Part shown: one piece after another, positions 33,781 through 62,505 of the stretch
How positions within the stretch are numbered: the stretch's first letter is position 1
Layout of the letters: each line of letters opens with the position of its first letter
DNA from: an uncultured Erythrobacter sp.
GTDB taxonomy: Bacteria > Pseudomonadota > Alphaproteobacteria > Sphingomonadales > Sphingomonadaceae
Assembly: GCF_958304185.1 (NCBI RefSeq)
Contig: NZ_OY284434.1
Span: 62,001-126,000 of the forward strand
Direction: 5' to 3'
DNA length: 64,000 nucleotides
The notes under the pieces: model-generated
The model's input: the letters and a program-made list of their open reading frames with translations, nothing else
The model's database searches: none
What the model was told of the DNA's origin: nothing
Made by a program: the position numbers and the translations under genes

Positions 33781-34152
33781 TCACTTCGGACGCTTGGCGC
33801 CGTACTTCGAGCGGCTCTTGCGGCGGTCCTTCACACCCTGGGTGTCGAGCACGCCGCGCAGGACGTGATAACGCACGCCGGGAAGATCGCGCACACGCCC
33901 GCCGCGGATCAGCACAACCGAGTGCTCCTGCAGGTTGTGGCCTTCACCGGGGATGTAGCTGATGACTTCGCGCTGGTTGGTCAGGCGAACCTTGGCCACC
34001 TTGCGCAGCGCCGAGTTCGGCTTCTTCGGGGTCGTCGTATAGACGCGGGTGCAAACGCCGCGCTTCTGCGGGTTCTGCTCCATCGCAGGGACCTTGGACT
34101 TGGCCTTCTGCGGAACGCGGCCCTTGCGGACCAGCTGGTTGATTGTCGGCAT
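33781..34152 (-). CDS. rpsL: 30S ribosomal protein S12
   Basis: Small-subunit decoding-centre protein S12, 123 residues. The conserved streptomycin-determining regions read [18 protein letters not shown] (lysine at the usual K43-equivalent position) and [20 protein letters not shown] (20 residues). Both are wild-type-like by eye. It is the first gene of the str operon; the promoter must lie in 34153-34420. Confidence 0.99.
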
Positions 34153-34518
34153 TAAGTTCTCACTTCACCTGATGAGGGTGGAACGGGTGCCGGACGATCG
34201 GAGGAGGAATAAGCCAATTCGTCATCCCGGGCTTGACCCGGGACCGCTATCCGCAAGCGCATGGCCAGCGGCACGAGATCCCGGCTTTCGCCGGGATGAC
34301 GAAGAGACTGAAACGCTCCACCCGCATATCCGGCCCTTCGGCCACCGGGTTACTTTGACGATTGCCCCCGCGAAAGAGACGCACCGCCAATGTTCAGCTC
34401 AAACCGGGAATGACCCCGGAAGATGCGCGCCCTTAGGCGGGTTTGGGTGGGGGGTCAAGGGTTGCGAGAAGGAATGCCAAAGCTAGACGCATTCTCGTCA
34501 ATATGTGAGAAGGATCAC
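34153..34518. other. 366-bp divergent gap between rpsL and the ATPase gene
   Basis: It contains the two-hairpin repeat at 34226-34297 and must hold the str-operon promoter (minus strand) and a promoter for the ATPase gene (plus strand). I see no gene. G+C content falls towards the ATPase gene. Confidence 0.6.
34226..34297. repeat. Two-hairpin repeat with 22-nt conserved core beside rpsL
   Basis: Hairpin 1 is the palindrome cccgggcttgacccggg (34226-34242). Hairpin 2 is atcccggc/gccgggat (34278-34297, loop tttc). The 22-nt core at 34256-34277 matches 19821-19842 with one mismatch. The 17-bp palindrome recurs at 39708-39724 and, inverted, at 36821-36837 and 37175-37191. Confidence 0.88.
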
Positions 34519-35853
34519 ATGGAAAGCAGCCGTAATAACACCAAAGCACGCCTTACCCAGGTAACGATCCACGGTCTTTATGGATCCGATCAACCTATAT
34601 GCCTAGGCTTTGCCGGATCAACTCCTTCCAACGATCCAGTTACAATCCTGTACGGGGACAATGGATCTGGAAAAACGACAATCTTGAAGCTCCTTTATGC
34701 AGCCCTTTCGCCAGAGGATAATGCGGGGCATCGGGGCTTCTTGGGTAGGGCTCATTTTCAGAAAATTGCCATTGAATTTGAAGGCGCGCAGCGGATAGAA
34801 ATCCATAAATCTGAAGAAAAATCGTATGAGTATCGTTTTCTGGGCGGCGCCGAAGACTTTACGGCCACCGTCCATATGAGCGAAAATTCGATCGCTCCAC
34901 GTTCATTGAACCCCTCGACCGACAAAATCGTTGCTGCGCTCAACGCGATCGCTCCTCCTATGATAATCGTAAGTGACTACCGAACAATAAAATCCTCACA
35001 GCAGCCCTGGGATTTAAATATAAGTATTAGAGAGATCAGGCAAGAAATCGAATGGGAGCGCCGAAATCGTAGTAACTCCTACGCAAACGACGCGGAAATT
35101 GAGGTTCTTTCAACGGCGGCGCTCGAGCGCCTTATAGCCATAGCGCAGCGAAATCTTCTTTCTTCCGCAATGTCAAGCAACGCTCGCGCCAATACAGAAG
35201 CAAGCCAAATTTATTTGCAAATTACTCAGACGATTGCTGACCCAAAATTTGGCGAAAATAATAATAAAATTGTGGGTGAAAAACAAAAGCTAATGAATAG
35301 ATTGGCAGGCGTCGCGTCTCAGGCTGAGAGCCAAGCGCGTTTTGGTCTCATGGACTCTACCAACCTTGGCCCAATGATCGACCAACTCGCGCAAACAGAC
35401 AATGCCAATGCACTGTCAGCACTCATTCCAATCCTCAAACCTTATGTAGCTTCTTTAGAACAGCGACTGGAAGCAAACGCTGAACTCACCCTTGTTCTGC
35501 AAACATTTTCCGATAAACTAAACTCCTTTTTCAGACGAAAATCAGTTAATCTTCATCTGAGAAATCTATTTGAGATCAGGAATAGCGCATCAGACCGGGT
35601 CGACGTGGGCATGCTTTCCTCCGGTGAGAGGCATCTTCTTTCACTCTTCACAGTGGCTCTTTTGTCGCGCGACACGGACTCTCTCGTTTTGATTGACGAA
35701 CCTGAGATTTCTCTAAATTATATTTGGCAGCGCAACATAATTCAGAGCCTTCTAGACATATCTAGCCACAGAACTCATTTTGTCGTTGCATCTCATTCTT
35801 TTGAAGTGATTTCTTCATATCGCAAAAACGTCGTAAACATTAGCGACTACTAA
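34519..35853 (+). CDS. ABC-type AAA ATPase, AriA-like (putative PARIS defence sensor)
   Basis: A 444-residue ATPase of the AAA15/OLD-like SMC/ABC class. It has Walker A GDNGSGKTT (residues 46-54, K52), a long helical middle (about 170-345), the ABC signature LSSGE (366-370), Walker B LVLIDEPE (D393, E394) and an H-loop histidine (H426). I start at ATG 34519 because AAGGA lies 4 bases upstream; ATG 34474 is possible but its AAGGA abuts the start. The gene is AT-rich compared with both sides. The next gene, 8 bp on, encodes a DUF4435/TOPRIM-like protein. That pairing is the PARIS AriA-AriB layout, in which AriA senses a phage anti-restriction protein and releases AriB. The assignment to PARIS rests on architecture, not on a search. 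Confidence 0.85.
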   Translation: MESSRNNTKARLTQVTIHGLYGSDQPICLGFAGSTPSNDPVTILYGDNGSGKTTILKLLYAALSPEDNAGHRGFLGRAHFQKIAIEFEGAQRIEIHKSEEKSYEYRFLGGAEDFTATVHMSENSIAPRSLNPSTDKIVAALNAIAPPMIIVSDYRTIKSSQQPWDLNISIREIRQEIEWERRNRSNSYANDAEIEVLSTAALERLIAIAQRNLLSSAMSSNARANTEASQIYLQITQTIADPKFGENNNKIVGEKQKLMNRLAGVASQAESQARFGLMDSTNLGPMIDQLAQTDNANALSALIPILKPYVASLEQRLEANAELTLVLQTFSDKLNSFFRRKSVNLHLRNLFEIRNSASDRVDVGMLSSGERHLLSLFTVALLSRDTDSLVLIDEPEISLNYIWQRNIIQSLLDISSHRTHFVVASHSFEVISSYRKNVVNISDY

Positions 35854-35861
35854 GGCGCAAA

Positions 35862-36695
35862 ATGACATCCCTTCCACGCCGCGATGCTAGCGAGCTGCTA
35901 ACACAAGCCCAGCTGAATAATGAGCGCAAGATATTAGTGGTAGAGGGCGAGATTGATGCAAGAGTAATCTCAGACTCGTGCTTTAATCGCCATCTTCCTA
36001 TCGATGTTTACCCAATCTCGGCGATTGACTCGTTGAATCCAGAAAGCCCCGAACTCTATGGTGGAAATAAATCTGCTATAATCGGCCTATTCTCGAATGA
36101 CAATTCAGGCCTCGACGAATGCGATGGCATATTTGGGCTCGTTGATCGGGATTTCGATTTTCACAGAAACATTCAGAGAACCGAAAAATCTATAATTTAT
36201 ACTGAGTTTACAACACTGTTCAGTTTTGGTTTTTCAGAAGAATTTCTAATAAGATTTTTCGATAAAATTCTTATGGTAAACCTTCCAGTGAAGTTTATTT
36301 CAAATTTTCATCAATGGTCTTCATCATATTTCTCATTTCTCCTTAATTGGCGAGAAATTTGCTTCGATGAATCCCCACCCTCAATTAAGAGTTACGTGCG
36401 TCCAATAGAGAAGGGTGGCTTCGATTGGAAAGGCTATGGCGTTGCTGTTAAGTCAAAGTCGAGCGGCAGGTTAGCTAATCTAAATCTCCATGATAGGCGC
36501 TGCCTTGGAGATGTATTACTTAATATACATGAGCATCATTCATTATTTTATTTATATCTTTCCGCAATCACCTCAAAATTTATTGACAAAAAGTTACCTT
36601 TTGAGCAATTTGAACACCTTTGGATTGCGCGTTATAGAGAGGAGATAGAATGCTGCGCGACATGGAAGCGCATATTGAGGCTTCCTGAATCCTAG
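35862..36695 (+). CDS. DUF4435/TOPRIM-like protein, AriB-like (putative PARIS effector)
   Basis: A 277-residue protein read as DUF4435-like. The N-terminal strand ends in VVEGEIDARV (E28, D32), the position of the TOPRIM glutamate. A second acidic motif, GLVDRDFDF (D95, D97, D99), fits the TOPRIM DxD. After that it is divergent: the usual Glu-Asn after the third strand is not evident (YTEFTTLFSF). In characterised PARIS systems the AriB TOPRIM nuclease is held by AriA and, once released, cleaves tRNA and stops growth. It lies 8 bp after the ATPase and is very AT-rich (36241-36300 has 14 G/C in 60 bases by my count), indicating recent transfer. Alternatives are another OLD-like ATPase/TOPRIM pair. 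Confidence 0.8.
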   Translation: MTSLPRRDASELLTQAQLNNERKILVVEGEIDARVISDSCFNRHLPIDVYPISAIDSLNPESPELYGGNKSAIIGLFSNDNSGLDECDGIFGLVDRDFDFHRNIQRTEKSIIYTEFTTLFSFGFSEEFLIRFFDKILMVNLPVKFISNFHQWSSSYFSFLLNWREICFDESPPSIKSYVRPIEKGGFDWKGYGVAVKSKSSGRLANLNLHDRRCLGDVLLNIHEHHSLFYLYLSAITSKFIDKKLPFEQFEHLWIARYREEIECCATWKRILRLPES

Positions 36696-37476
36696 TTGGT
36701 GTGGACGCCAATGCCTTTGCTGCCCCGCGTTAGTACGAGCGGCGCTCCGCATCTCCCTTGCCTCTGCGTCTATGCGTAAAACCCTGCTTCGCGTCTTCGC
36801 GTGACACAAAAAAGCCTAGCCCCGGGTCAAGCCCGGGGAGACGAAAAGGGGGGAAGGACGCAGCCCCCTCCCCTCCGCGAGACTATTTGTTGGCGCCCTC
36901 AAGCGCCGGGCGGCGGACGTCCGTCCGCCTTGGCTTTCGCGCCATAAGGCGCGGCGCGCGGTCGCGCTTGCGGCGCTGCGCGCCGTGACTGTGGCATACG
37001 CGCGGCTGGTGGCTCCGCCCCCCTCCCCCAGCCCCTCCCGCAAGGGGAGGGGAGTTTAGGGCCCTCTGCGCCTCTCTGCTCCTCTGCGGTCTCTGCGTGA
37101 AACCACTTTACGGCTTCGCTTCCGTTCTGGTGGGGTGCTCGCAGTCCGTGGCTCCCCTCCAAGATCAGCCCGGCCCCGGGTCAAGCCCGGGGTGACGAAA
37201 GAGGGAGGGAGGAAGGACGCCGCCGTCCCCCTGAAGAAGCGGGGGCTTTGCGGTTTCCTACTCCGCCGAAACCTGCAATCCCCTCGCGCGCCATGACCCG
37301 CCAGCCCGCCCGCTCCCCTCGCCTCGCATCCACTGCCGAACGGCACGGCGGCGGCATTCGCGCGGGGGGCGGTTTTTGGTTTCTGGACCGTGTCTCCTGT
37401 GTCTCCAACAGCGTGTCAGCTGAACGGGGCGGAGGCGGGGCGGTAACGGCGCGGGGACTTGGGCTTGCGTGGGGGC
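36696..37476. other. 781-bp gene-free, repeat-rich stretch right of the ATPase/TOPRIM island
   Basis: No credible gene. It carries degraded copies of two repeat families: CTCTGCG...CTGCGTGAAA blocks near 36759-36812 and 37056-37101 (related to the inverted repeat at 40467-40690), and two copies of the 17-bp palindrome cccgggtcaagcccggg (36821-36837, 37175-37191). G+C content returns to the genomic level here. Confidence 0.75.
36821..37191. repeat. Two copies of a 17-bp palindrome in the gene-free stretch
   Basis: cccgggtcaagcccggg occurs at 36821-36837 and 37175-37191. Each is followed by gacgaaa and a G-rich run, so the copies share flanks as well as the palindrome. The same palindrome in the other orientation is at 34226-34242 and 39708-39724. 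Confidence 0.85.
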
Positions 37477-38268
37477 TCAGTCGGCGGCCAGATACCCGAC
37501 CAGCGCGCGCACCTTCTTGGATCGCCATTGCGGCGGGGGGGCGAGCAGCCAGTAGGCGCGGGTGCCGGGCTCGGGCTCGGTCAGGGCGGTGAGGGTGCCG
37601 CTGGCGATGGCGCGCTCGGCCAGTGCGAGGGGGAGGATCGTGCGCCCCATCCCCGCCAGCGCCGAGGCGAGCGCCTGTCCGGGGGAGCCGGCGCGGATGC
37701 AGGGTTTGATGCCATCGGGCAGCGTCATGCCCGGCCAGTCGATCCACGCCTCACGGTACTCGGGCGCGGCGACGGTGACGCGCATGGCGGGGGCGAGTTG
37801 CACGCCCTGGAGCTCGCCCGGCCCGTCGACCAGCCGGATCGCGAGGTCGAGGTTGGCCTCGGTGAAGTCGGCGTGCTCGTCGGGCGCGAGGATGTACTGG
37901 ACGCCGGGGGTGCCCGCCTGGAACTTGGCGAGGCGGGGGGCGAGCCACTCGGCGTAGAACTCGCGCGGGACGGCGATGGTGTAACGGTCGGAGGCCTGGC
38001 CCGCCTGCATCGCGGCGACGCTCTCCTCGAACCGCATGAACCCTTCGCGCAAGGGGTCGAGGCCGGCCTCACCCTCGGGCGTGAGTTCGAGGCCCTTGGA
38101 GGTGCGGCGGAACAGGACGACGCCGAGGACGTCCTCGAGCGCGCGGATCTGCTGGCCGACGGCGGCGGGGGTGACCGCCAGCTCGTCCGCAGCACGGGTA
38201 AAGGAGAGGTGCCGCGCGGCGGCATCGAACACGCGCAAGGCGTTGAGGGGCAAGTGGGTGCGCTTCAC
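37477..38268 (-). CDS. LysR-family transcriptional regulator, GcvA-like
   Basis: A 263-residue LysR-type regulator. The N-terminal winged helix-turn-helix (residues about 7-66) reads LPLNALRVFDAAARHLSFTR, then AADELAVTPAAVGQQIRALE, the GcvA-type variant common in regulators of beta-lactamase and glycine cleavage. The C-terminal effector domain runs from about residue 93 (RYTIAVP) and is slightly short. No divergent gene gives a clear target: the upstream neighbour is apaG on the same strand, 52 bp away. Confidence 0.92.
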   Translation of the reverse strand: MKRTHLPLNALRVFDAAARHLSFTRAADELAVTPAAVGQQIRALEDVLGVVLFRRTSKGLELTPEGEAGLDPLREGFMRFEESVAAMQAGQASDRYTIAVPREFYAEWLAPRLAKFQAGTPGVQYILAPDEHADFTEANLDLAIRLVDGPGELQGVQLAPAMRVTVAAPEYREAWIDWPGMTLPDGIKPCIRAGSPGQALASALAGMGRTILPLALAERAIASGTLTALTEPEPGTRAYWLLAPPPQWRSKKVRALVGYLAAD

Positions 38269-38734: not shown

Positions 38735-38875
38735 GTCGCCTCGCAAGTTAGCGATTCTTCGTGCGGTCACAAGAGGGGCAACGTTCTTAATCCACGCTGT
38801 ATCCCGAGCGCATCAGGAATTCTCGCAAGGGCGATCCGGTTGCGCGCATACCGGCAATGGCATAGGCCTGCCGCC

Positions 38876-39598
38876 ATGCCTGCCCCAGGATCGATCACCG
38901 CAGCTCCCGTCACCCGCCGCGCGGCGCTGACAGGGATCGGAGGAGGCATCAGTGCGGCCTTACTGGCAGGCTGCGCTGGCACGCGTGGTCCTGCCCCTGC
39001 GCCCGCCCTCGCTCTCCCCATCGACCACGCCGCCGACCTCACACCCGACTTGGTCGATCTCGCACGCTTCGATCCGCGGTTCAGGTTTGATATCCGTTAT
39101 GCGACGCCGGCCAACTTCATGGGCCGGGTGCTCTACCCCCTCCCCCGCGCCGTGGCCCAGCGTCCGGTCGCCGAAGCCTTAACCAGACTGCAGACCCGGG
39201 CCGAGGCTGCGGGCTATGGCCTGCTGATCTTCGATGCCTATCGCCCCTGGCGCATCACGCGGATGATGTGGGAGGAAACCCCGCCGGAGAAACGCGAATT
39301 CGTTGCCGATCCGCGCACCGGATCGCGGCACAATCGCGGCTGTTCCATCGACCTTACGCTGCACCGGGGCGGCGGCGAGGTCGCGATGCCGAGCCCCTAT
39401 GACGATTTCACCCCGGCCGCCTATCGCAGCAACATCGCCGTCCCGGCCAAGGCGCTGGAACTGAGCCGGATGCTTGAGGTATGGATGGTCGCCGAAGGCT
39501 TCGTCCCCCTTGCCAACGAATGGTGGCACTATGACTGGGCCGACTGGCGGCGCTATCCGATCATGGATGTGCCGCTGGAGGCGGTAACAGCGGGGTAA
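38876..39598 (+). CDS. VanX-family D-alanyl-D-alanine dipeptidase, Tat/lipoprotein signal
   Basis: A 240-residue zinc D,D-dipeptidase that would cut D-Ala-D-Ala in the periplasm, consistent with cell-wall recycling rather than resistance. It has TRRAALTG (twin arginine at 14-15) plus a lipobox LAGC (C33), suggesting Tat export and lipidation. Zinc ligands H152 and D159 lie in SRHNRGCSID, and E215 and H218 in NEWWHYD; R123 in DAYRPW is the conserved active-site arginine. The start is ATG 38876; an apparent 520-residue frame begins in unrelated antisense sequence. No vanA/vanH genes are near. Confidence 0.92.
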   Translation: MPAPGSITAAPVTRRAALTGIGGGISAALLAGCAGTRGPAPAPALALPIDHAADLTPDLVDLARFDPRFRFDIRYATPANFMGRVLYPLPRAVAQRPVAEALTRLQTRAEAAGYGLLIFDAYRPWRITRMMWEETPPEKREFVADPRTGSRHNRGCSIDLTLHRGGGEVAMPSPYDDFTPAAYRSNIAVPAKALELSRMLEVWMVAEGFVPLANEWWHYDWADWRRYPIMDVPLEAVTAG

Positions 39599-39707
39599 GC
39601 GCAGGGCAGCTGTGGCTGCGCGGTGTCAGCTCCGCTTTGGCGGATTGCCGCACAAAAGCCGACATGCAGAAACCGACCCTGATGCGGTCGTTTATCTGTT
39701 ACGCCTT

Positions 39708-39724
39708 CCCGGGCTTGACCCGGG
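39708..39724. repeat. 17-bp palindrome cccgggcttgacccggg
   Basis: A single copy in the gap between the dipeptidase and the isomerase gene, identical to 34226-34242. The surrounding 39599-39813 holds no gene. Confidence 0.85.
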
Positions 39725-39813
39725 GAGGCGAATAGGATGTCGGCAGCTTCCCACCCAAGTTCCGCCAAAACCCCCGACTTCGCACGCACCCGAAAGCTGC
39801 CTCAGCCGCCGAC

Positions 39814-40431
39814 TCACCCCTTGGCCAGCAACTCCTCGATCTGGCCGAGGCGTTCCTTGCCGAAGAACATCTCGCCCTCTCCTTTCGCGCCAACAAACAT
39901 TGTCGGGATGCCAAAGGCCCCGCGCGCGACCACCGCATCGGTGTTGGCGACAAGGCCTTGCTTGACCGCGTCGGTCTGCGCGCGGGCGAACAAGTCACCC
40001 GCGTCGAATCCCGCAGCGGTGAGCGCCGCGCCGATCGCTTCGGGCGAGGTAATGTCGAGGCCGTCCTCCCAGATCGGGCGGAGCAGGCCTTCCACGAATT
40101 GCACCCCGCGCCCGTCCTGATCGGCGGCAAACAGCATCCGCTGGAGCGTGATCGAATTGAACGGGAACTGCGGGTGAAGGCGATACTTGCCGAGGCCGTG
40201 CCTCGTGATGAAGCGCTGCATCTCGAGCATCGCGTATTCGTTTTTCCCCTTCACCTCGGCATCGCGGATCATCGGCGGGGCATTGCCGGTGAGCTTGTGC
40301 ATTCCGCCGAGGAACACCGGAATGACGTCCAGCTCAGCTTCGTAACGGTTGACGAGCTCGCGCAGTGGCCACCAGATCAGGTAGGCGTTGGGGCTTACGA
40401 AATCGAACACGAGTTCAACGCGGTTGGCCAT
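39814..40431 (-). CDS. 2-hydroxychromene-2-carboxylate isomerase-like thioredoxin-fold protein
   Basis: A 205-residue DsbA/GST-kappa-like protein. The N-terminus FDFVSPNAYLIWWPLRELVN has the family SPN/SPY motif with a serine where GSH-dependent isomerases activate the thiolate. FPFNSITLQRML in the helical domain and GAFGIPTMFV with the cis-proline near the end complete the pattern. Named members isomerise hydroxychromene carboxylate in naphthalene breakdown, but most genomic homologues have unknown substrates, and no aromatic-degradation genes are nearby. Confidence 0.9.
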   Translation of the reverse strand: MANRVELVFDFVSPNAYLIWWPLRELVNRYEAELDVIPVFLGGMHKLTGNAPPMIRDAEVKGKNEYAMLEMQRFITRHGLGKYRLHPQFPFNSITLQRMLFAADQDGRGVQFVEGLLRPIWEDGLDITSPEAIGAALTAAGFDAGDLFARAQTDAVKQGLVANTDAVVARGAFGIPTMFVGAKGEGEMFFGKERLGQIEELLAKG

Positions 40432-40466
40432 TGGTCAGGTTCCTTGTTGTTGCGGAGGTAGACGGG

Positions 40467-40690
40467 GTTTCTCGCAGGGATCGCAGAGGAGCAGAGGACG
40501 CTGAGGAGCAGAAAACGCCGCGCGAGCGGCTTTAAAATTCTCACACGAAGACACGAAGGCATGAAGATGAAGCACGGCGCCGCACCGTGGCACATCATCT
40601 TGGTGTCTTCGTGTCTTCGTGTGAAAAAGACTGCGGCTGCGCCGCGCTTTCCTCAGCGTCCTCTGCTCCTCTGCGATCCCTGCGAGAAAC
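40467..40690. repeat. Nested inverted repeat, 41-bp outer and 18-bp inner arms
   Basis: Outer arms 40467-40507 and 40650-40690 are perfect reverse complements over 41 bp (gtttctcgcaggg...). Inner arms 40541-40558 and 40607-40624 (tcacacgaagacacgaag) are perfect over 18 bp. It fills the gap between the isomerase start and the metZ stop. Related partial copies lie at about 36759-36812 and 37056-37101. Confidence 0.92.
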
Positions 40691-40698
40691 AAACTGCT

Positions 40699-41916
40699 CT
40701 ACATCCCCGCCGCGCTAAGCGCCTGATCCATATCCTCGACCAGATCGGCAATGTCTTCCAGCCCCACATTGATCCGCAACAGCCCCTCGGTCACGCCCAT
40801 CGCCGCGCGGGCTTCGTCGCCCATGTTGGCGTGGGTGCTGGATGCCGGGTGGCACATCAGGCTGCGGGCATCGCCGATATTGTTCGAGATATCGACCAGC
40901 TTCAGCGCATCAAGCACCGCAAAGGCGCGCGCGCGGGTGCCGACGTCGAGCGCGAAGATCGGGCCGGTCGCGTCCATCTGAGCCATCGCCAGATTGTGCT
41001 GCGGGTGGCTCGGCAGGCCGGGGTGGAGCAGGTGCCCGCCCGCCTTGGTGACGCGCGGTTCGAGGAACTCGCCCAGCGCCACGGCCTGTTCGGATTGCTT
41101 GAAAGCGCGCAAGGGCAGCGTCTCCAGCCCCTTCAGCACCACCCAGGCATTAAAGGCGCTCAATGTCGGTCCAGTGTTGCGCTGGAACGGCATCAGCACT
41201 TCGTCGATCCACTGCTTGCTCGAACAGATCGCGCCCGCCAGGACGCGGCCCTGCCCGTCCATCAGCTTGGTGGCGGAATAGGCCACCACATCCGCGCCGA
41301 ACTCCATCGGGCGCTGGAGCACGGGGGAAGCAAACGCGTTGTCGACCACGGTGGTGATTCCATGCGCGCGGGCGAGGCCGCAAACGTAAGCGAGATCGAC
41401 GATGTCGAGCGTCGGGTTGGCCGGGGTCTCGAAGAAAAAGACCTTGGTGTTAGGCCGGATCGCAGCTTCCCACGCGGCGTTATCGGCACTGTCGATGATG
41501 CTGACGTCGATCCCGAACTTCGGGAGCAATTGATCGCAAAGCCAGCGGCACGAGCCGAACGCGGCACGCGCGGCGACCACGTGATCGCCCATCGCCAGCT
41601 GGCACAGCAAGGCTGCGGTCATCGCCGCCATCCCGGTCGCCTGCGTGCGGCAAGCCTCGGCCCCTTCCATCAGCGCGATGCGTTCTTCCAGCATCGCCAC
41701 GGTCGGGTTCTGCAGCCGCGAATAGGTCATGCCCTGCGCCGTGCCGGCGAACCGGTCGGCGACGGTCTGGGCGTCGTCATAGGTGTAGCCCGAGGTGAGG
41801 AACAGCGCTTCGCTGGTCTCCCCGTGTTCGCTACGCCAGGTGCCGCCGCGCAGCGCGCGGGTTGCGGGGCGCCAGTTTGCCGTGGCGGCGCGGTCCATGC
41901 CGGTGGTCTTCTTCAT
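40699..41916 (-). CDS. metZ: O-succinylhomoserine sulfhydrylase (Cys/Met metabolism PLP enzyme)
   Basis: A 405-residue Cys/Met-metabolism PLP enzyme. It probably forms homocysteine from O-succinylhomoserine and sulfide. The PLP lysine is K217 in YSATKLMDGQGRVLAG, preceded by FETPANPTLDIVD and VVDNAFASPVLQRP; the motif TYSRLQNPT near residue 64 is typical of MetZ. Methionine gamma-lyase or cystathionine gamma-synthase are related alternatives. The GQGR after the lysine favours MetZ. The start is at 41916; the longer open frame continues out of frame through the TetR gene and is not real. Confidence 0.9.
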   Translation of the reverse strand: MKKTTGMDRAATANWRPATRALRGGTWRSEHGETSEALFLTSGYTYDDAQTVADRFAGTAQGMTYSRLQNPTVAMLEERIALMEGAEACRTQATGMAAMTAALLCQLAMGDHVVAARAAFGSCRWLCDQLLPKFGIDVSIIDSADNAAWEAAIRPNTKVFFFETPANPTLDIVDLAYVCGLARAHGITTVVDNAFASPVLQRPMEFGADVVAYSATKLMDGQGRVLAGAICSSKQWIDEVLMPFQRNTGPTLSAFNAWVVLKGLETLPLRAFKQSEQAVALGEFLEPRVTKAGGHLLHPGLPSHPQHNLAMAQMDATGPIFALDVGTRARAFAVLDALKLVDISNNIGDARSLMCHPASSTHANMGDEARAAMGVTEGLLRINVGLEDIADLVEDMDQALSAAGM

Positions 41917-62430: not shown

Positions 62431-62505
62431 TGGGGCGTAGCCAAGCGGTAAGGCACCGGTTTTTGGTACCGGCATGCGAAGGTTCGAATCCTTCCGCCCC
62501 AGCCA
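62431..62505 (+). tRNA. tRNA-Gln (anticodon TTG)
   Basis: The 75-nt sequence folds as a cloverleaf: acceptor tggggcg/cgcccca, D-arm gcc/ggc, anticodon stem ccggt/accgg with loop ttttggt (anticodon TTG), and T-arm with gttcgaatc. The 3' end carries an encoded CCA. It starts 86 bp after yghU. Confidence 0.95.

Follow-up and report, generated by a model that had tools for sequence, protein, structure and literature searches.

A divergent PARIS-type gene pair in a probable defence hotspot between rpsL and a LysR-type gene in Erythrobacter

We analysed a 64,000-nucleotide stretch of the genome of an uncultured Erythrobacter sp. (contig NZ_OY284434.1, positions 62,001 to 126,000), here called the window. 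Beside rpsL, the window carries two adjacent genes that encode an ATPase and a Toprim-type protein. The pair is probably a divergent abortive-infection system of the PARIS type (AriA/AriB), occupying a defence hotspot between rpsL and a gene for a LysR-type regulator. Confidence in the homology to PARIS is high, and confidence in the function is moderate. The features on which the argument turns are as follows.

34519..35853, plus strand: gene 1, ariA-like, encoding a 444-residue ABC/AAA-type ATPase (AAA_21/AAA_15), by Pfam, clade profile and Foldseek
35862..36695, plus strand: gene 2, ariB-like, encoding a 277-residue Toprim/DUF4435-type protein, by clade profile, fold and residue alignment
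33781..34152, minus strand: rpsL, which we take from its sequence to encode ribosomal protein S12; left anchor, transcribed away from the pair
37477..38268, minus strand: open reading frame (ORF) of 263 residues for a LysR-type regulator, named by reading its translation; right anchor
34459..37476, no strand: the variable interval (hotspot), holding the PARIS-like pair and a spacer of about 0.78 kb with repeats, by genus comparison

Both ORFs of the pair are intact, lie on one strand beside rpsL in the order ariA then ariB, and are separated by 8 bp. The G+C content (GC) falls to 0.451 and 0.473 in the two 1-kb windows of 35001-37000 and is 0.546 in 34001-35000, against 0.589-0.719 in the other 61. 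The ORF list and these values confirm the coordinates, the gap and the AT-rich character given in a preliminary description made from the letters alone. An alternative in-frame ATG of the first ORF lies at 34423, within the conserved rpsL-side flank. The start at 34519 is preferred because an AAGGA stands just before it (by eye). No promoter that could serve the pair was predicted by a sigma-70 scan in 34459-34518 (3 matches in all, 2.7 expected).

Gene 1 is an AriA-type ATPase. Its motifs, Walker A at 46-54 (GDNGSGKTT), LSSGE at 366-370, D393-E394 and H426, are those named in the preliminary description, and across 23 AriA-like proteins nearly all of these residues show little or no variation. 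It scores 70.8 bits against Pfam AAA_21 (cut-off 27) and 44.3 bits against AAA_15 (cut-off 32.1), and so passes the ATPase half of the published PARIS rule as given in the passages of PMC9122126 used here (AAA_15 or AAA_21 above 32/27 bits). PADLOC left a near tie between the Septu ATPase PtuA (2.4e-21) and AriA (5.5e-21). We settled this tie for AriA because the clade profile and the structure favour it. A phmmer search of the Protein Data Bank (PDB) lists AriA chains first (4.7e-11). A profile of the 23 AriA-like relatives, window included, finds PDB AriA at 7e-30 over nearly the full length, followed by 9n69, an 'AAA family ATPase' of a retron complex, at 7e-12. When the profile is built without the window protein, gene 1 scores 312.1 bits, and the best of 5000 shuffles 12.8. 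For the AlphaFold2 model (predicted local distance difference test, pLDDT, 78.6), the 15 best Foldseek matches in the PDB are chains of PARIS entries (2e-16 to 6e-10), taken as AriA by length and match. The sixteenth is a retron chain (2e-9), and Septu ranks lower.

A phylogeny of 43 ATPases places the window protein beside 24 others as their sister (97/81); these come from Cyanobacteriota, Bacteroidota, Planctomycetota, Actinomycetota, Pseudomonadota and further groups. The two plasmid pairs fall in a separate group of 15 rows. In a leave-one-out comparison at 80% conservation it deviates at 17 of 71 columns (others 0-10). Both window proteins are long branches, and we are unsure of their exact placement. 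Gene 1 has no match among the 60 other genomes of the genus (within 100 genomes searched), so recent acquisition, as already suggested, is likely. It has no close relative in viral contigs and two partial matches in plasmids. Another ATPase and Toprim-like pair was seen in two genomes (same order; same class) (L002:574-2759 and L012:620-2808; L and G numbers are our handles for loci and genomes), and forms a long tree branch of its own.

Judged by the ORF pattern behind its ATPase relatives, the clade profile and the predicted fold, gene 2 is an AriB homologue. An AriB-like ORF directly follows the ATPase in 22 of the 24 best gene 1 relatives (L043-L066; shortened in L050 and L059), and the remaining two loci (L052, L065) stop at a contig edge. 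A profile of 21 AriB-like proteins built without the window protein gives gene 2 56.8 bits (expect value, E, of 1e-13 per million sequences); the best of 5000 shuffles reaches 8.9 bits. With the window protein included, the 22-protein profile finds PDB AriB at 1e-5 and 3e-5, with the next match at 0.57. Two AriB chains are also the best PDB matches of the AlphaFold2 model (pLDDT 75.9) at 2e-6 and 1.4e-4, the next being 0.07. The predicted structure therefore has the Toprim fold whose absence had been named as grounds for abandoning PARIS. The order AriA then AriB, the folds, the clade profiles and the ATPase tree together bear out the PARIS architecture proposed for the pair.

Several observations weigh against this assignment. 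Gene 2 has no match to Pfam DUF4435, to NCBIfam or, by sequence, to the PDB, and its PADLOC AriB match is weak (E 0.005, 15 bits). Its relation to AriB therefore rests on the clade profile and the fold. The earlier label 'DUF4435-like' accordingly fails as a family match, while an AriB-type Toprim fold is indeed predicted. Gene 2 also falls short of the partner rule for PARIS in the passages used of PMC9122126, which asks for DUF4435 at at least 27 bits. Identity to the aligned AriB-like proteins is 14-23%. By the same leave-one-out count gene 2 differs at 15 of the 28 conserved columns, with gaps at two, more than any other of the 22 proteins (0-12). Phe120 stands where the relatives mostly have Glu, as does AriB of Escherichia coli (E. 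coli), and for K60 and K64 of E. coli AriB the alignment offers no obvious equivalent (by eye). The nuclease may thus be altered or dead.

Among the 22 AriB-like proteins, window included, 9 match DUF4435 and 14 match PADLOC AriB at E 0.01; the branch is poorly seen by current models. Since gene 2 lies under the DUF4435 value, which is a threshold for detection, and 13 of the 22 lack a DUF4435 match, we call the pair divergent PARIS-type rather than rule-passing PARIS. A tree of AriB proteins did not resolve the position of the window protein. Gene 2 has no close relatives among plasmids, phages, viral contigs, genome contigs (single-sequence query) or 288 other genomes of the class.

At the level of residues, the acidic Toprim pattern noticed at the outset is present (V-E28-G-E-I-D32 and D95-R-D97-F-D99), and the alignment shows E28, D32, D95 and D97 kept. 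As had been remarked, the protein diverges after the DxD region: 13 of the 15 deviating columns lie beyond residue 100. Besides Phe120, Phe122 replaces a Tyr two residues after the Glu of TDxxxE, and HEHH replaces what is mostly HGHD in relatives. K60 and K64 are needed for T7 defence by E. coli AriB (PMC12409363, in the passages covered); a term search of those passages gave no statement on the role of the Glu, Tyr or HGHD residues.

These changes allow two other accounts of gene 2. The first, possible though doubtful, is a functional PARIS-like pair whose AriB has a changed target or chemistry, acting on another tRNA or RNA or through a metal site without the later residues. It agrees with the retention of the first Toprim acids beside the loss of later conserved residues and of the E. 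coli lysines, and with a clade of which DUF4435 sees 9 of 22; against it, at about 20% identity the alignment beyond residue 120 is uncertain. The second, which we consider unlikely, is decay: AriA would be intact while AriB lost catalysis through point changes under relaxed selection. All but two of the deviating columns do lie beyond residue 100, and the AriA ATPase motif residues are kept. Yet both ORFs are full length without stops, AriB keeps its four acids and is modelled with an AriB fold, and two relatives change the same Glu as gene 2, to Gln in L049 and Asp in L053. AriA, too, diverges most within its own set, and since this holds for both proteins we favour a long branch over one decayed gene. 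For the divergent PARIS-type pair that we prefer, the altered residues still leave real doubt on the target or even catalysis.

The position of the pair was compared across 61 genomes of the genus, own genome included, by probing with rpsL and the LysR gene; distances are those between probe matches. The two genes lie within 10 kb on one contig in 37 of the 61. Five of these sites are nearly empty (G021, 283 bp; G006, 300; G036, 309; G013, 561; G051, 612) and 32, including our own, are filled with 1.8-6.3 kb. We then covered 49 genus intervals or rpsL-upstream stretches (L123-L162, L203, L215-L222). ORFs of at least 150 residues with GC below 0.57 occur in 38 of the 49. There are 65 such ORFs, although this limit is absolute and 9 of 31 control loci have an overall GC below 0.58, so some are not AT-rich for their host, and one picked in L162 is an antisense frame. 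Eleven of the 65 have a homologue in the interval of another genome, or 13 if two L126 ORFs with an L162 match are counted, and 52 have none. Cargo can adjoin rpsL even in stretches that show no LysR gene (G014, G045, G052, G055), which makes rpsL the steadier anchor.

Defence-type genes are present in 17 of the 49 stretches, or 14 without the weak cases. Pfam scans covered 45 genus and 5 other-genus proteins and PADLOC scans 20, with L215, L216 and L221 outside the scans. The systems and genes, by genome, are as follows.

G000: PARIS
G040: Thoeris, ThsB-TIR and ThsA-Macro
G027: CD-NTase and 2TM effector, a CBASS pair
G059: BstXI endonuclease and methylase
G024: GmrSD_N-HNH and EcoRI-type methylase; G049 counted by its match to G024
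G048: full GmrSD
G060: GmrSD_N/NsnA and FRG
G034: methylase-Mrr
G002: DRT8 reverse transcriptase
G035: PD-T4-10_B
G032: AIPR/AbiU
G028 and G037: KAP/PDC-S20, a PADLOC candidate and not a proven system
G014: TIR (weak case)
G046: OLD-like AAA_15 ATPase (weak case)
G008: HipA-like (weak case)

Nine more stretches hold possible candidates: GHKL-type ATPases (G058, G050, G015), YaaC (G038), a kinase (G041), HTH-IrrE (G020), P63C (G025), DUF5131 (G055) and an AAA protein (G023). The site between rpsL and the LysR gene thus combines constant core flanks with variable immune content, as in described core-gene hotspots. The preliminary description had treated a PARIS system directly upstream of rpsL as apparently undescribed. 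The pair does adjoin rpsL, but the position is not peculiar to it, being a variable site of the genus that often holds defence-type genes.

The interval might instead be a generally variable, weakly selected spacer and no defence hotspot, which we think quite improbable. The control set comprises 31 loci of about 20 kb. Length varies here in three intervals; the other two lie to the right of LysR (window 38800-39832 and 40431-40705) and rarely carry low-GC inserts. Among intervals longer than 1 kb, a 400-bp window with GC below 0.52 occurs in 26 of 28 at rpsL-LysR, 4 of 22 at 38.8-39.8 kb and 1 of 13 at 40.43-40.70 kb. Because some genomes of the genus are themselves GC-poor, we recounted against the left flank of each locus; GC at least 0.05 below the lowest window of that flank is seen in 26/28, 4/22 and 0/13, respectively. 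None of the 31 chains changes in length by more than 300 bp left of rpsL within its covered part, which begins at 22-27.6 kb in 29 chains and at 30.7 and 32.8 kb in L200 and L185. The lower GC of described hotspots is thus found in 26 of the 28 filled intervals. The spacer account can point to the two other length-variable intervals, to the many unannotated cargo genes and to a conserved flank that stops at the same place in empty sites too. Against it stand the contrast in low-GC inserts and the defence-type genes in 17 of the 49 stretches.

The cargo itself also speaks in part against a hotspot devoted to defence. It is unannotated in 10 of the 49 stretches (three of them, G005, G044 and G045, outside the scans) and of regulator type in 3 (LuxR-type in G010 and G003, helix-turn-helix, HTH, in G056). 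Five stretches have no low-GC defence-like cargo (G001, G007, G009, G011, G043) and a further five are nearly empty. The share of defence-type genes, moreover, was counted at the rpsL site only. Overall, we see good evidence for a small-cassette defence hotspot at rpsL. LuxR-type autoinducer-binding proteins (L125, L149) and homologous HTH-type proteins (L125, L149, L144) recur there, so the site also takes non-defence genes. Two species share homologous proteins (42%) of 524 and 542 residues without a Pfam match (L146:2369-3943 and L219:789-2417), a candidate for an unknown defence family. Cargo upstream of rpsL in L145, L148, L155, L161 and L134 has no convincing family match (L155 by Pfam only), with neither a Pfam nor a PADLOC match in L145, L146 and L148; that of L221 was outside the scans. 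With several cargo genes lacking a family match, the site could be mined for new systems, and a guilt-by-position rule suggests itself: in these bacteria, low-GC genes lying immediately upstream of rpsL are candidates for immune genes.

Pairs of loci point to horizontal exchange of cassettes, as far as sequence comparison tells, because unlike cassettes lie between like flanks and like cargo between unlike flanks. G005 and G044 are 96.8% identical over 1308 bp on the left and 96.3% over 2140 bp on the right, around unmatched 2.5-kb middles. These cassettes (L215 1494-3978 and L216 1309-3832, oriented) lie behind an acetyltransferase-like gene (by eye). The flanks of G052 and G055 are 93% identical on the left and 92-95% on the right around different cargo. 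Conversely, G058 and G015 share 2.9 kb of cargo at 90.7% around one GHKL-type ATPase gene, between flanks of 79-81%. The protein of this gene (L140:802-3228 and L203:1335-3377) is 97% identical over 680 residues, and the gene is a candidate for a horizontally exchanged defence gene. The scans of cargo proteins turned up no integrase or transposase family, and conservation of one flank is very high; we infer from this that cassettes are exchanged mainly through homologous recombination in the flanks. With unlike cassettes set in near-identical flanks, the movement of immune genes without a recognised integrase can be studied. A tRNA-anchored insertion was ruled out, since the sole tRNA of the window lies at 62431, and no direct repeats are common to both borders of the window's interval.

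Of the 39 other loci (L123-L162), 20 lose homology to the left flank of the window at 34459-34466, one loses it at 34440 and 18 lose it earlier. Because 4 of the 20 sites are empty, we read this as the ordinary boundary of conservation close to this species and not as a proven insertion point. Just inside it lies a conserved element.

34430..34458, minus strand: TTGACC (34453-34458), 17 nucleotides, TAAGGG (34430-34435), upstream of rpsL; putative rpsL promoter

The element has a good -35 but a poor -10 hexamer, and the sigma-70 scan did not report it; a loosened form of the pattern is found in 44 of 69 loci, own included. Intergenic repeats centred on CCCGGG (34218-34246, 36821-36845, 37171-37199) flank the cassette, inverted with respect to each other. 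As similar ones occur in other loci, we give them no weight as a cause.

The comparison also took in 20 genomes from other genera of the family, chosen among the higher-ranking entries of a 119-genome match list and not at random. Nine of them have, in the 4 kb upstream of rpsL, a 500-bp window whose GC is at most 0.53 (L163, L168, L169, L172, L174, L175, L177, L178, L179), and 11 do not. Their cargo includes a DNA methylase (L172), a weak reverse-transcriptase match (L174) and a UvrD-type helicase (L169).

A bolder reading, tentative and on balance rather unlikely, joins both halves of the analysis. The rpsL operon would serve as a shared homology arm, so that recombination within near-invariant ribosomal DNA lets species of the genus exchange whole small immune cassettes just upstream. 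The PARIS branch would have an AriB that works without residues conserved in other AriBs, on another target or by another chemistry. If so, the unannotated low-GC cargos at the site would be a source of new defence systems. Apart from this reading, the PARIS branch puts to the test how much drift an AriB effector can bear.

Another ATPase-nuclease defence system (Septu PtuAB, OLD or a retron ATPase) in place of PARIS is very improbable: PADLOC puts PtuA slightly above AriA, but the ATPase model prefers AriA (2e-16) to the best retron ATPase (2e-9) with Septu lower, gene 2 has no HNH match and an AriB fold, and the pair is two separate ORFs. The nuclease partner in Septu PtuAB is an HNH protein. 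Septu was therefore ruled out on the missing HNH match (Pfam) and the AriB fold, and a single-gene OLD nuclease on the stop between the ATPase and Toprim ORFs. Neither an OLD nuclease nor an unrelated ATPase, outcomes that the preliminary description had named as refuting it, fits the predicted AriA and AriB folds.

The anatomy of the divergent PARIS-type pair fits the scheme worked out in E. coli. There, AriB is held by an AriA hexamer until a phage protein, Ocr or another, brings about its release or activation; AriB then dimerises and nicks tRNA-Lys in the anticodon stem-loop (PMC11455837; PMC12409363). By analogy, the Erythrobacter ATPase would assemble and keep AriB inactive. The switch would come from a phage protein (in E. 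coli, anti-restriction proteins such as Ocr), after which AriB would form dimers and cleave tRNA of the host, bringing translation and infection to a halt. The activities, trigger, target and tRNA cleavage are all carried over from E. coli in this proposal. An HsdM-type methylase elsewhere in the genome (PF02384, 1.6e-69) is compatible with PARIS as a second line behind restriction; the family is also matched in 13 of 14 control genomes.

Both PARIS itself and defence hotspots flanked by core genes are already known, as far as the parts of the sources used here go (PMC9122126, PMC10250203, PMC10121019). We found no description of an rpsL-anchored defence hotspot in the literature searched, which excludes most subscription journals. 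PARIS of E. coli B185 (Rousset et al. 2022, PMC9122126; AriB as a tRNase, PMC12409363; both in part) resembles our pair in having two genes in the same order with ATPase and AriB folds. On alignment-based numbering its AriB residues E26, D88 and E90 correspond to E28, D95 and D97 (E26 is named in the passages covered of PMC12409363). It differs in that structural alignments give 14-17% identity, the DUF4435 rule excludes our protein, the E. coli AriB Glu counted as 122 corresponds to Phe120, and K60 and K64 are not kept.

The closest parallels to the site, in the portions of PMC10250203 consulted, are the core defence hotspots cDHS1 and cDHS2 of Pseudomonas aeruginosa. Both have core-gene flanks, variable content with many immune systems and no single mobile element; one flank lies near translation genes (pheST, rplT), and cDHS2 also holds PARIS. 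At rpsL, in contrast, the anchor is a different gene, the inserts are smaller (1.8-6.3 kb), no tRNA or transfer-messenger RNA lies beside the site in the window, and the comparison runs across species of a genus rather than within one species. The defence islands of E. coli were likewise mapped by flanking core genes, but according to the passages used of PMC10121019 they are almost always on mobile elements and have a median occupancy of 8%. Unlike them, the rpsL site has no integrase family among its scanned cargo and is filled in 32 of 37 genomes.

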